Assembly (NCBI GenBank): GCA_947588605.1
Contig: CANPYK010000004.1
Location: forward strand, 1 to 64,000
Reading direction: 5' to 3'
Source: an uncultured Oscillospiraceae bacterium
GTDB taxonomy: Bacteria; Bacillota; Clostridia; Oscillospirales; Oscillospiraceae
Length of the DNA: 64,000 bases
Below the pieces are notes generated by a model. It searched no databases and was not told the origin of the DNA. It was given only the letters and a program-made list of their open reading frames with translations. A program made the translations under genes and the position numbers. Positions 20,507 to 49,915 of the stretch are shown here, piece after piece; within the stretch, counting starts at the first letter, position 1; the number at the start of each line of letters is the position of its first letter.

Positions 20507-21691
20507 TTATGGGACAGCGCGGGTGCGGAGGTAGAGGTAGACGGTGACGGCGGCCTCGGCGCGGGTGGGGACGGCGTGGCCGTGGATGGGGTCGGCGGCG
20601 TAGATGCCGTTGTCCAGCGCCCAGGTGAGCGCGTCGGCGGCATAGGCGCTGACCTCACCGGTCCGCACGGCCTCCTCGGTGTCCAGGCGGAAGGAATCGT
20701 ACTCCTCGCCGGACAGGCGCAGGAGCATGACCAGGAGCTGTTCCCAGGTCAGCGGGTCGCCCGGGGCGAAGAGGCCCCCGCCCACGCCGTTGACGACGCC
20801 CGCGCCGTCAGCCCACAAAACGGCGTCGGCGTACCACGCCCCCTCCGGCACGTCGGTGTAGACGGGGGCATAGGCCGTCTCGGGGCAGTCCATGAGCCGG
20901 TAGAGGATGGTCACCGCCTCGGCCCGGGTCAGGGTCCCGTAGGGGGAAAAGTGCTCCGGGTCCCGGCCGTTGATGACGCCCCGGTCCGTCAGCTCGTCCA
21001 GCGCCATGTGGTACCAGGCGTCCGCCGGGACGTCGGTGAAGCTCTCGCCGGGGCAGTCCTCGTCCGTCCAGCCCGCGGGCCGGATGGCGGCGTAGAGCTT
21101 CACCGGCAGATGCTCCGCCGGGAGGACGAATTCATAATACGCAAATCCGACGGGAGCGGCGTCCTCCGCCGGCCAGGAGGGGATCTCATGAAATTCGCTG
21201 TCCAGCACCGTGAAGGACACAAGCTCGCAGCCCGGGTTTATCGACACCTCCGCCCGGACGGTGTCCCCCTGCCAGGAGTAAGCGTCCGTGACCCATATAC
21301 GGCCGTAGGGCACGGTGCCCTCCTCCACCGTCACCAGCGGCCAAGCGGGGTCGGGCTCCAGGTCCACCCGCTTGAAGATGTGGACGTCCCCCTCCACCCG
21401 GTGCTGAATCTCCTGGTGGGTGTACGCGTAAAAGAGGTCGTCGTACACCCGCACGCCGTTCGCGCCCCGGACGCGGACCTCCATGTCATAGGGTATCGTA
21501 CAGGCCCGGTGGAGCTCCGCCAGAAGCTCGATGACGTCCCCCTCCTTGTAGACCTTCAGCGCCTCGCTGAGGCTCGAGAAATACGTCCCTCCCAGGCGGC
21601 ACTCCATGACGTGCTCCGTCGCCCCGGCGGTCAGGGCCGTGGGCAGGAGCAGCGTCAGGGCCAACATCAGGGCAAAGATCCGTTTTTTCAT
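20507..21691 (-). CDS. Secreted protein with S-layer homology (SLH) domains
   Basis: 394 aa. Signal peptide 1-24 (ending TAGATE). An N-terminal region of unknown function (about 25-210, beginning LGGTYFSSLSEALKVYKEGDVIELL) is followed by two clear SLH repeats (about 215-265, FTDVPADAWYHMALDELTDRG; and 280-330, YTDVPEGAWYADAVLWADGAG) and a third degenerate one at the C-terminus. SLH domains bind secondary cell-wall polymers, so the protein is probably held at the cell surface. It overlaps the end of nth by 4 nt, an odd pairing with a DNA repair gene. Confidence 0.85.
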   Translation of the reverse strand: MKKRIFALMLALTLLLPTALTAGATEHVMECRLGGTYFSSLSEALKVYKEGDVIELLAELHRACTIPYDMEVRVRGANGVRVYDDLFYAYTHQEIQHRVEGDVHIFKRVDLEPDPAWPLVTVEEGTVPYGRIWVTDAYSWQGDTVRAEVSINPGCELVSFTVLDSEFHEIPSWPAEDAAPVGFAYYEFVLPAEHLPVKLYAAIRPAGWTDEDCPGESFTDVPADAWYHMALDELTDRGVINGRDPEHFSPYGTLTRAEAVTILYRLMDCPETAYAPVYTDVPEGAWYADAVLWADGAGVVNGVGGGLFAPGDPLTWEQLLVMLLRLSGEEYDSFRLDTEEAVRTGEVSAYAADALTWALDNGIYAADPIHGHAVPTRAEAAVTVYLYLRTRAVP

Positions 21692-36631: not shown

Positions 36632-36865
36632 AAAAAATCGCCCCAAGCAAAATAGCTCAGGGCGAATGAAGCTCATCCGCGGTACCACCTGAATTCCCCG
36701 CCGCCGGCGGGGCACTCATCGCTCTGTAACGGGAGCACCCGTCGGGGACTACCTATCACCCCCGCGGCTCCGGGACGACCTTTCGCGCGCTTCCCGTCAG
36801 GACCTCGCACCACCCGGTCCCTCTCTGCGACGATCCGCGCCTACTTCTTCCCCTCACAGCCATTT
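36632..36865 (-). promoter_or_regulatory. T-box leader of valS
   Basis: About 230 nt between the valS promoter and ATG. The conserved T-box core GGTGGTACCGCGG is at about 36677-36690 (minus strand), preceded by the antiterminator partner region (GCTCCCGTTACAGAGC, about 36722-36738). A terminator follows: TCGCCCTGAGC (36655-36665) pairs with GCTTGGGGCGA (36638-36648), then six T (36632-36637). The Stem I region contains GGTCGTCCCGG, so GUC (Val) is the candidate specifier codon. Uncharged tRNA-Val would permit readthrough into valS. Confidence 0.92.
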
Positions 36866-36871
36866 GCGGGT

Positions 36872-48082: not shown

Positions 48083-48111
48083 ATCTTACACCATTTTTCC
48101 CGGAAGGTCAA
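48083..48111 (-). promoter_or_regulatory. scfA promoter, overlapping the decarboxylase 3' end
   Basis: TTGACC (48106-48111), 17 bp, TAAGAT (48083-48088) on the minus strand. The -35 and spacer are inside the last codons of the decarboxylase gene (stop at 48086). Confidence 0.72.
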
Positions 48112-49459
48112 CACAAAAAATCGACTCCGGGCCGTGTTTGTGGGTGAAATGGAGCGTTCCGGCGCGATTCAGCGTCTCCAGGACCCCCTCGTCCACCCGT
48201 TCGCCGGGGACGAGGCAGGGCACCCCCGGCGGGTAGGCCCAGGCGTACTCCCCGGCGACGCGGCCCAGGGCCTCCCGCGCCGGCAGGAGACGCCCCGGCG
48301 CGGCCATGGCCTCATGGAGAGGCAGGACCTGCTCCGGCAGGGCGGGCGCGGGGATGGGGGCGGTCTGGGGCGGCCTCGCCGTCCTGTCCAGCGTAAGGAG
48401 GGCGGTCAGGAGGCGGTCCAGGCTTGCTTTTGTGTCCCCCAGGCCCGTCATGCACAACGTGAGGGGCCCCCGGGCGTACTCCGGCTCGATGCCGTGCTCC
48501 CGCCGGAGGCGCGGGGCCAAAGCTTCCTCGCCCATGAGGAGGAGCTTGGACGGGTCCAGGGCGAAGACGCCCGCGCCGCCGTTGTAGAGGCGGATATTGT
48601 AAAGCGACCGCGCCCCGGCGCGGAAATCGCGGAGGAGCGCAAGCCAACAATCGGCGGCGGCCTCCCCCTCCCGCTCCATGAACCGGACGCACCCCTCGAT
48701 GGAGGCGCTGAGCAGGTAGGAGGGCGAGGAGGTCTGGAGCATCCCCACAGTCCGGCGGACCCTCAAGGGGTCCACAAGGCCGGGGTTTATGTGCAAAAGG
48801 GCGGTCTGGGTGAGGGACGGGAGGGTCTTGTGGAGGCTCTGGACCACCAGGTCCGCCCCGGCGGCCACGGCGCTCCGTGGAAAGCCGCCGAAGCCCAGGT
48901 GCGCCCCGTGGGCCTCGTCCACCAGGAGGGGGACGGCGCGGGCGTGGCAAACCTCGGCGATGGCGGGGATATCGCTGACGACCCCTTCATAGGTGGGGCT
49001 GGTAACGCAGACGAGGCCCACGTCGGGATGCGTCTCCAGCGCCGCCGCCACCGCCTCCGGCGTCACCGAGAGGGGGATGCCCAGGGCCGGGTCCACGGGG
49101 GGCGTGAGGTAGCGCGTCCGCGCCTTTGTGAGCTCGGCGGCGTGGTACACCGACCGGTGGGAGGCGCGGCACATCAAAAGCTCCCGCCCGTCCCCCAGTA
49201 CGGCGAGGACCGAGGCCAGCACCCCTAAGGTGCTCCCGCCCACCAGCGCCACGCTCTCTTTAGCGCCCCAAAGCTCCGCCGCCGCGCGCTCCATAGCGCT
49301 GAAATCTTCGGCGGGGTCGTTTAAGTCGTCAAAGCCCTCGATCTCCGTGATGTCCCGCTCGCAAAGCCCCTTGAGCCACGGAAAGGCCGCGGCGTTGCGC
49401 TTGTGCCCCGGCATGTGCATGGGAAGGGAGGAAAGCGCGTCCAGCTTTTCTAAGATCAT
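48086..49459 (-). CDS. Orn/Lys/Arg decarboxylase family PLP enzyme
   Basis: 457 aa fold-type I PLP enzyme of the YaaO type. N-terminal HMPGHKRN motif; LVGGSTLGVLASVLA; VDEAHGAHLGF (PLP-binding Asp); VVQSLHKTLPSLTQ with the Schiff-base Lys; and a C-terminal domain (PPGVPCLVPGERVDE). Members decarboxylate arginine, lysine or ornithine to polyamines; which one is not evident. ATG 49459 is chosen from GGAGG upstream, not the longer GTG frame. Convergent-free: the neighbouring plus-strand RNA starts just upstream. Confidence 0.9.
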   Translation of the reverse strand: MILEKLDALSSLPMHMPGHKRNAAAFPWLKGLCERDITEIEGFDDLNDPAEDFSAMERAAAELWGAKESVALVGGSTLGVLASVLAVLGDGRELLMCRASHRSVYHAAELTKARTRYLTPPVDPALGIPLSVTPEAVAAALETHPDVGLVCVTSPTYEGVVSDIPAIAEVCHARAVPLLVDEAHGAHLGFGGFPRSAVAAGADLVVQSLHKTLPSLTQTALLHINPGLVDPLRVRRTVGMLQTSSPSYLLSASIEGCVRFMEREGEAAADCWLALLRDFRAGARSLYNIRLYNGGAGVFALDPSKLLLMGEEALAPRLRREHGIEPEYARGPLTLCMTGLGDTKASLDRLLTALLTLDRTARPPQTAPIPAPALPEQVLPLHEAMAAPGRLLPAREALGRVAGEYAWAYPPGVPCLVPGERVDEGVLETLNRAGTLHFTHKHGPESIFCVDLPGKMV

Positions 49460-49491
49460 GGGCAAACCTCCTGAAAAAAGCTCTCCCGCTC

Positions 49492-49520
49492 TTGACAAGC
49501 GGGTTTTGGAAGGGTATAAT
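49492..49520 (+). promoter_or_regulatory. Consensus promoter of an untranslated RNA
   Basis: Perfect TTGACA (49492-49497), 17 bp, TATAAT (49515-49520) on plus. No plausible coding frame follows before the terminator at 49629-49663. Divergent from the decarboxylase gene. Confidence 0.88.
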
Positions 49521-49526
49521 AAAGCT

Positions 49527-49664
49527 GGGCAAGGAAAGAGGGAGCGGCAGGACGCCTTCACCTGACAGCCTGGCCCGATACGAAAAGTTTAGATTTCTTC
49601 ACTGCAACAAAATGTCACAGCAAAGAATAAGACCGTTCGCTATGGGTCAGCGGCGGTCTTTTTC
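49527..49664 (+). ncRNA. Candidate small untranslated RNA (antisense to the 3' part of the peptide mRNA)
   Basis: About 138 nt from the start predicted by the promoter to a rho-independent terminator: AAGACCG (49629-49635), inner stem CGCT/AGCG, CGGTCTT (49654-49660), then T-run. No open frame with a ribosome binding site is present. The last 18 nt are antisense to the end of the peptide frame (stop at 49647), and the first 100 nt are antisense to any run-through of the peptide mRNA. I could not match it to 6S, SRP, tmRNA, RNase P or a known riboswitch. Inference: antitoxin-like or independent regulatory RNA. Confidence 0.7.
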
Positions 49665-49736
49665 TTTATCCTTTACGACCTGAAGCTGAAAGGTAAACCT
49701 ATAGCCCCGGCGGTGAAAGGTAAATGTAAAATACAT
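49647..49736 (-). CDS. 29-residue aromatic, basic peptide (candidate small protein)
   Basis: MYFTFTFHRRGYRFTFQLQV followed by nine mostly charged residues. It has a consensus promoter (49831-49859), an 88-nt leader, and AAAGGAGG 10 nt before the ATG; that combination on so short a frame is hard to explain by chance. The aromatic/Thr alternation suggests an amphipathic beta strand rather than a classical transmembrane helix. The last codons and stop lie in the hairpin that terminates the plus-strand RNA, so both RNAs share this DNA. No recognised family. Confidence 0.65.
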   Translation of the reverse strand: MYFTFTFHRRGYRFTFQLQVVKDKEKDRR

Positions 49737-49830
49737 CTACACACCCCCTCCTTTCGGAAAGAGTGGCCAGACCGTCGTATTGTCGGATCCGGCGCCAGCC
49801 GCGCCCTCCGCCCCTTGCGGGACTGACCGT

Positions 49831-49859
49831 ATTATACCGCCTGTGGCGAAATTTGTCAA
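49831..49859 (-). promoter_or_regulatory. Consensus promoter of the small peptide mRNA
   Basis: Perfect TTGACA (49854-49859), 17 bp, TATAAT (49831-49836) on minus. Predicted start near 49824. It faces the promoter at 49492-49520 across about 310 bp. Confidence 0.9.
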
Positions 49860-49881
49860 CTTCTCCCCGTTGCGCGGAGAT

Positions 49882-49915
49882 AAAAAACCGGGCGGTCCAA
49901 AAAGGCCCGTCCGGT
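49882..49915 (-). terminator. Terminator of the SurA-like gene
   Basis: ACCGGACGGGCC and GGACCGCCCGGT (two mismatches) around a five-T loop (49887-49915), followed on minus by TTTTT (49882-49886). It separates the SurA-like gene from the small peptide promoter. Confidence 0.85.

Follow-up and report, generated by a model that had tools for sequence, protein, structure and literature searches.

The window analyzed here, a stretch of 64,000 nucleotides from an uncultured Oscillospiraceae bacterium, contains at positions 49480-49882 (both strands) a compact module in which two promoters face each other across 370 bp. The peptide mRNA promoter (49859-49831, minus strand) is an exact TTGACA-17-TATAAT sequence (12/12), as is the facing small-RNA promoter (49492-49520, plus strand; 12/12), the candidate antitoxin promoter; both lie where a preliminary description of this DNA had placed them. 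Promoter-like sites in the 10 kb number six, vs. 1.1 expected from shuffles. Since the entire 2.34-Mb genome holds 82 exact TTGACA-N16-18-TATAAT sites, and none matching the reversed control pattern, such a facing pair is unlikely to have arisen by chance. About 17 of these 82 promoters have similar spacers (type TTGACAATTTGCTTAATTTGTGGTATAAT), possibly reflecting a shared operator; six of these places were read and gave no Rfam match.

With transcript ends placed by consensus, the minus promoter is predicted to yield an mRNA with an 88-nt leader (49737-49824), comprising a 5' hairpin, a domain designated X (about 49764-49818), and a hairpin (49742-49765, in the fold of 49737-49800) that sequesters the Shine-Dalgarno (SD) sequence AAAGGAGG (49747-49754). 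The SD sequence precedes a 29-amino acid frame with an ATG start (49736-49647, minus strand; MYFTFTFHRRGYRFTFQLQVVKDKEKDRR), the candidate toxin, whose last codons and stop are contained in a bidirectional terminator hairpin shared by both strands (49629-49660; -15.7 kcal/mol, z -3.1, in the plus sense and -17.3 kcal/mol, z -6.3, in the minus sense). In many relatives this terminator takes the form AACCGCCACTCNGNMAAGTGACGGTT. The plus promoter is predicted to yield a 138-nt small RNA (49527-49664), the candidate antitoxin, which consists of a 5' stem-loop X (about 49527-49577), a spacer and the terminator (fold of 49527-49666, z -2.6).

Leader, frame, stop within the terminator hairpin and a terminated plus RNA of about 138 nt had all been proposed in the preliminary description, and are present or predicted at those positions. 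Two further proposals stood in part. The plus RNA, described as having no frame, contains no plausible gene; a 63-codon TTG frame (49492-49683) does span it, and is implausible as a gene because its start sits inside the -35 box. The two RNAs, described as overlapping tail to tail, certainly share the terminator, and their overlap may be longer: a second hairpin lies 3' of the terminator in the minus sense (49597-49625, minus strand), where it may form part of the mRNA 3' end, with folding energies of -14.5 kcal/mol (minus) vs. -4.7 kcal/mol (plus). This hairpin, which sits between the terminator and X and contains UG/GU pairs, recurs in 13 other copies of the genus, and all 14 fold more stably as minus-strand than as plus-strand RNA, a hint that some mRNA reads past the terminator. 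Elsewhere in the window are a T-box leader (36655-36866, minus strand) and a tRNA-Pro gene (20893-20990, plus strand).

Downstream of the minus RNA lies an Orn/Lys/Arg decarboxylase gene (48086-49462), whose start is about 185 nt beyond the 29-codon frame. As the minus RNA is directed at this gene, the frame could in principle be a leader peptide or attenuator for the decarboxylase, a reading that is largely contradicted and hardly credible: a terminator and an opposing promoter lie in between, the flanks differ in other copies (polynucleotide phosphorylase and an HTH gene in Vescimonas), and one relative (G016) has the site without the module. In G016 the entire module is missing as a single piece, with the flanks about 20 bases apart and no evident target duplication, whereas a second relative (G021) carries the module at the same site (86% identity, query 1-717); two further relatives are too diverged at this site for the module edges to be placed. 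The module is therefore gained or lost as a cassette, yet two species have it at an orthologous site.

The frame behaves as a coding sequence. Among 11 distinct frames from the genus (one of which, L024, is frameshifted beyond codon 22), codons 1-22 gave pS 0.61, pN 0.094 and dN/dS 0.079, vs. pN/pS ratios of 1.25 and 1.61 when the same codons were read in the two other frames; the last codons were omitted because the terminator constrains them. The preliminary description had left room for a frame free of purifying selection in relatives; constraint was found instead, and by this substitution pattern the 29-amino acid frame is a gene under purifying selection.

The encoded peptides differ in character from the known membrane toxins of type I systems. 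Of 93 profile-intact peptides, 92 have a greater hydrophobic moment at 160-180 degrees than at 90-110 degrees, and this beta-range moment exceeds that of shuffles (p<0.05) in 59 of the 93; the test was rerun on this unfiltered set because the first set (88 peptides) had passed a pattern filter favoring such sequence. Net charge ranges from +3 to +7 across the 93 peptides, and mean hydropathy over the best 15 residues reaches at least 1.6 in 13 of them. The window peptide has a corresponding hydropathy of -0.37, and its own beta moment does not beat shuffles (0.195). Family peptides lack the alpha-helical transmembrane domain of membrane type I toxins; they are predicted to be cationic, beta-patterned, roughly 25-38 amino acids long and without a membrane helix, bearing out an earlier doubt that the peptide is a plain membrane helix. 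Membrane type I toxins are described as alpha-helical in the relevant part of a published survey (PMC8309996), with RalR and SymE as cytosolic exceptions; a table legend in the same source also marks beta-sheet for some entries.

Copies of the module are numerous. The host genome contains four clear copies at the DNA level and six places matched by the peptide profile. Searches with the single peptide gave matches, some of them weak, in 14 of 60 genomes (E<=10, own genome counted), and among the 34 genus genomes a profile built mostly from genus peptides matched 21 at E<=1 and 15 at E<=1e-3 (own genome counted). At the order level, profile A2 (E<=0.01, own genome counted) matched 25 of 394 genomes; the figures for class and phylum are 5 of 391 and 7 of 398, and include G443, G528, G1031 and G1082 (weak) on profile match alone. 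Distribution across class and phylum is patchy, with 11 places in a single genome outside the class. Both promoters are retained in every one of the 14 strongest genus copies. Relative to the match start, the peptide promoter is positioned at -111 to -123 in 12 of them and at about -290 in the two that bear an insert; the facing promoter is about 156-168 nt beyond the match. When 12 loci were read from four of the genomes found in the order, class and phylum searches, both promoters were present in 10 and the facing promoter in 11; one class match (L226), with no promoters, looks like chance and was rejected, and another (L227) is a relic without a frame that has kept its small-RNA promoter.

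Outside the genus, the peptide takes the form MPITLTFHxxxxTVTIxVKSRNRHSAK or MRITLHIGRFTVTIIVKSRNRHSAK, in which the last codons, NRHSAK-stop, are the terminator itself (AACCGCCACTC...AAGTGACGGTT). The terminator DNA pattern is found in at least 120 stretches of named genome contigs; of 80 titles among the matches listed, 75 are labeled e.g. Oscillospiraceae, Lachnospiraceae or Clostridia, and five just ‘Firmicutes’ or ‘bacterium’. It also matches 10 putative viral contigs. The sole record in the plasmid collection is the 861-kb replicon of Vescimonas fastidiosa, with four places; the PLSDB table, which is incomplete, shows no annotated feature at the two of these examined. Tandem module arrays occur at two loci, L095 (five sites) and L195 (three sites). 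Promoters, peptide and terminator recur together across genera, the joint conservation about which the preliminary description had asked, and the best reading is that the module is one copy of a multi-copy, undescribed family in Clostridia.

Multiple copies, inverted 5' domains, presence or absence at one site and tandem arrays are also what a small MITE-like mobile cassette would display, an element bounded by inverted ends, with promoters pointing inward, that persists by transposing and not through any function. We consider this improbable: the parts that resemble each other are found inside the promoters, away from the outer edge, and vary greatly from module to module; the frame is under coding constraint; two species have an orthologous site in common; and the single empty site compared in detail shows no clear target duplication.

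In order to compare retention of the two halves of the module, we collected 141 terminator sites from 130 loci, viral contigs among them (139 distinct; 127 with enough flank); because these were found by a fixed terminator pattern, the set is biased in the terminator and the C-terminus. Of the 127 sites, 120 have a facing promoter (<=2.5 mismatches); the same criterion picks one up at 12 of 381 random positions within these loci and in 11 of 381 shuffles. Counting frames as intact by profile, and limiting the distance of the small-RNA promoter, 95 sites have both frame and small-RNA promoter, 24 the promoter only, 4 the frame only and 4 neither, an asymmetry (24 vs. 4) with p 1.8e-4 that is partly a matter of target size, as a frame offers more positions for damaging mutation than a promoter does. 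In 21 of the 95 sites that have both, however, the promoter of the peptide itself falls below threshold, so that the small-RNA promoter is better kept even at equal target size. Among the four sites with the frame only, two (L144, L147) have a facing promoter with 3 mismatches at the usual distance, and at a third (L156) a near-consensus promoter lies at a distance of 39 nt, leaving a single site (L124) without any facing promoter. Frames have been lost by frameshift (L135, L204 and, by eye, L137), in-frame stop (L107), loss of the start (L122) and truncation. Of the six frames in the host genome, three are broken: an insert with inverted ends interrupts two, and the third has lost its leader and start. 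The facing promoter hexamers are exact in all six. The short insert (ATACTAATATCTAATT...AATAGATATTAGTAT) lies in the first codons of the frame in two copies of this genome (L015, L023), and a similar one is found in a relative (L020); the small-RNA part is intact in all three. At L005, L018 and L207, extra partial copies carry the small-RNA part beside a full module.

This pattern of retention is as expected if the peptide, without its RNA, would harm the cell. A less satisfying and, in our judgment, unlikely account is that the small protein is useful and harmless, that an antisense RNA adjusts its synthesis, and that some copies tolerate loss of the frame while the RNA lingers; purifying selection on the frame, a peptide unlike typical membrane toxins and the same-locus orthologue of the window copy in G021 all favor it, but it fits poorly with the loss of frames beside near-consensus antisense promoters (24 vs. 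4), with the three of six broken frames in the host genome that keep their promoter, and with sequestration of the SD. The small RNA might alternatively be the functional product, a regulator acting in trans, with the peptide secondary, as could be read from the 24 of 127 sites with a promoter and no intact frame and from the partial duplications that carry the small RNA only; strong conservation of the peptide, and a small-RNA 5' end that matches the leader of its own module rather than a common sequence, make this very improbable, more so than a purely mobile element.

RNA anatomy was examined in 77 modules with a frame and both promoters, 70 after removal of near-duplicates, with the window copy excluded. 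RNAalifold returned no structure (energy 0) on the X domain and SD region, and single-sequence folds, with mononucleotide shuffles, were used instead. In these, 64 of the 69 leaders with a recognizable SD have at least 80% of it paired, and the small RNA forms a 5' stem-loop X (type GAGCACUGC-GACAA-GCGGUUAGCUC) of at least 6 pairs in 63 of 69, the cognate arms fitting each other better than swapped sets (0/20000). The mRNA leader carries a sequence homologous to X, in the same sense as the 5' end of the small RNA: X identity averages 12.8 within modules and 7.9 between them (0/20000 permutations), whereas the spacer of the small RNA, used as a control, gives no signal (5132/20000). Same-sense identity dominates, with reverse-complement scores of 6.4 vs. 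6.0 (73/20000); predicted pairing of leader with X is -23.1 kcal/mol for cognate vs. -21.6 kcal/mol for non-cognate combinations (0/20000). Pairing that involves the SD region, the frame or the spacer shows no clear module specificity (lowest for SD with spacer, 504/20000). At five loci (L217, L220, L221, L234, L074), the small RNA carries ACCUCCUUUC, complementary to an SD sequence, near the X loop (by eye).

Module-specific matching of this kind could reflect an exchange of arms between the two RNAs. When the arms, cut by a crude pattern, were tested one by one, pairing in trans of the mRNA 5' arm with the small-RNA 3' arm gave 134/20000 and the other trans combination 3721, with controls at 115 and 777; arm exchange as the full cause of the matching 5' ends is weakly supported at best in these tests, and was set aside. 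Within the mRNA, cognate X arms pair no better than swapped sets (19654/20000), so that support for a stem-loop at X is confined to the small RNA. Nor is X specific copy by copy within the genus: across 24 genus copies cognate X identity averages 17.6 vs. 11.8, a match that separates subgroups and not single copies, and the pair from the window comes 12th of the 24. The matching 5' ends of the two RNAs are solid; their meaning is not.

Searches against known families returned little. Rfam 15, at gathering thresholds, gave no match over any module in the window and 29 further loci, and among the matches listed were T-box, tRNA, tmRNA and group II intron families, which lie outside the modules by position (L195 checked); a permissive Rfam search on the modules gave chance-level matches only. 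The plus RNA has no Rfam family, and the idea that it might prove to be a known RNA such as 6S did not hold. No match over cut-off was found for 12 peptides in Pfam or 11 in NCBIfam, Fst/Ldr and Hol_Tox included, and PHROGs and PADLOC gave the peptides nothing that passed a cut-off or had an E value under 0.001. Nothing in the phage collection matches the MRITLHIG peptide; for the MPITLTFH peptide there are two matching fecal phage records, both unannotated and one matched only in part. YrzI (PF09501/TIGR02413) was considered and rejected: two variants fall below cut-off (Pfam 14.5 and 14.6/23 bits, E 0.04 and 0.038; NCBIfam 16/47.05 bits, E 0.01), the 10 other peptides in Pfam and the 10 others in NCBIfam give no match, the host genome has no YrzI match, and a literature search on YrzI toxicity gave no lead. 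The peptide strings appear in no paper of the literature searched, and the listings and abstracts retrieved on Clostridia, gut or novel type I modules, beta-type toxins and inverted-repeat layouts mention no such family. For human microbiomes, Fremin and Bhatt 2021 (PMC8040213) list 3161 + 2022 candidate RNAs, all anonymous; members of this module family could be among them.

We propose that the locus is a type I toxin-antitoxin-like module, composed of an SD-locked cationic beta peptide and a small RNA that share a terminator, and would put the probability of this reading at roughly two in three. Antisense control of a small, possibly toxic peptide was the candidate function named in the preliminary description, and recurrence of the unit, purifying selection and uneven retention, all observed in silico, lend it support. 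In the proposed mechanism, the minus promoter would produce an mRNA for a cationic, period-2 (beta-strand) peptide, with its SD held shut by a hairpin, and the facing promoter would produce the small RNA in excess over the mRNA. Because both RNAs would end in the same bidirectional terminator, their terminator hairpins would be complementary, and first contact may be made by kissing of the complementary terminator loops. The small RNA would next pair with the X domain of the mRNA, which would hold the leader in its SD-closed form and leave the duplex open to RNase III; were the small RNA exhausted, the peptide would be made and the cell harmed. Terminator kissing followed by X pairing is suggested by analogy with par, and pairing is the weakest step. 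Counting against the type I reading are the weak pairing of the arms, an X domain that is not copy-specific, and a peptide with no membrane helix. That these modules constitute a large new type I family of Clostridia, in which the toxin is an amphipathic cationic beta-strand or hairpin peptide and the same-sense 5' domain common to both RNAs sets specificity between modules, the antitoxin matching the ends of its mRNA (through strand exchange or mimicry) in place of a long antisense overlap, is a more tentative suggestion, which we hold at somewhat less than even odds.

Being short and divergent, type I toxins easily escape detection, and this family, present in many gut Clostridia, carried no annotation at the places looked up. 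A beta-type peptide, if true, would broaden the concept of a type I toxin. With their co-varying 5' domains, the modules supply natural pairs of related RNAs for studying the specificity of paralogous antisense RNAs, and the 24 copies that lack an intact frame represent natural losses of the putative toxin.

Comparison with known systems begins in the same genome, where a Hol_Tox-like module is present in two tandem copies (L277, G000:C18:28700-29800), with one more seen by eye (L278, G000:C40:1400-2000). It resembles the present module in having a consensus promoter that faces a short frame, but its 36-amino acid peptide (MAMELSLGDLLQFALVIIAVIKLVLYIVDRNQPKKK; PF16935, E 0.0013, 19.0/23.3 bits, below cut-off) is hydrophobic, unlike the cationic family, and no sequence relation is seen. 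Likeness to the YrzI small proteins amounts to weak, sub-cut-off similarity of two variants only. In the TxpA/RatA and BsrG/SR4 systems of Bacillus, a toxin mRNA and an antisense RNA are transcribed convergently, with overlapping 3' ends. The present module shares with them the convergent layout with 3' overlap and a small peptide, and, as described in part of PMC6563280, a charged C-terminus; it differs in that the sure overlap is the terminator, the peptide has no transmembrane domain and the two RNAs are similar in the same sense at their 5' ends. The preliminary description had likened the layout to these; par(pAD1)/Fst is closer, with its shared terminator and its repeats near both 5' ends. 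Differences from par/Fst are nevertheless clear: its repeats are direct in the DNA and complementary near the 5' ends, whereas here they are inverted and of the same sense in both RNAs; its small RNA is about 40 nt, vs. a predicted range of roughly 80-160 nt across this family; and Fst is a membrane-helix peptide, whereas here there is none, and no Fst or Hol_Tox match. The sections of PMC7472228 on this system describe convergent promoters with a shared bidirectional terminator at which contact begins, a toxin mRNA with a stabilizing 5' structure and an SD-sequestering stem-loop, and repeats that are poorly conserved among paralogues, presumably conferring specificity. Each has a counterpart in the module described here: a 5' structure and an SD-sequestering stem-loop in the putative toxin mRNA, repeats that vary among paralogues, and convergent promoters whose transcripts are predicted to end in one shared bidirectional terminator.
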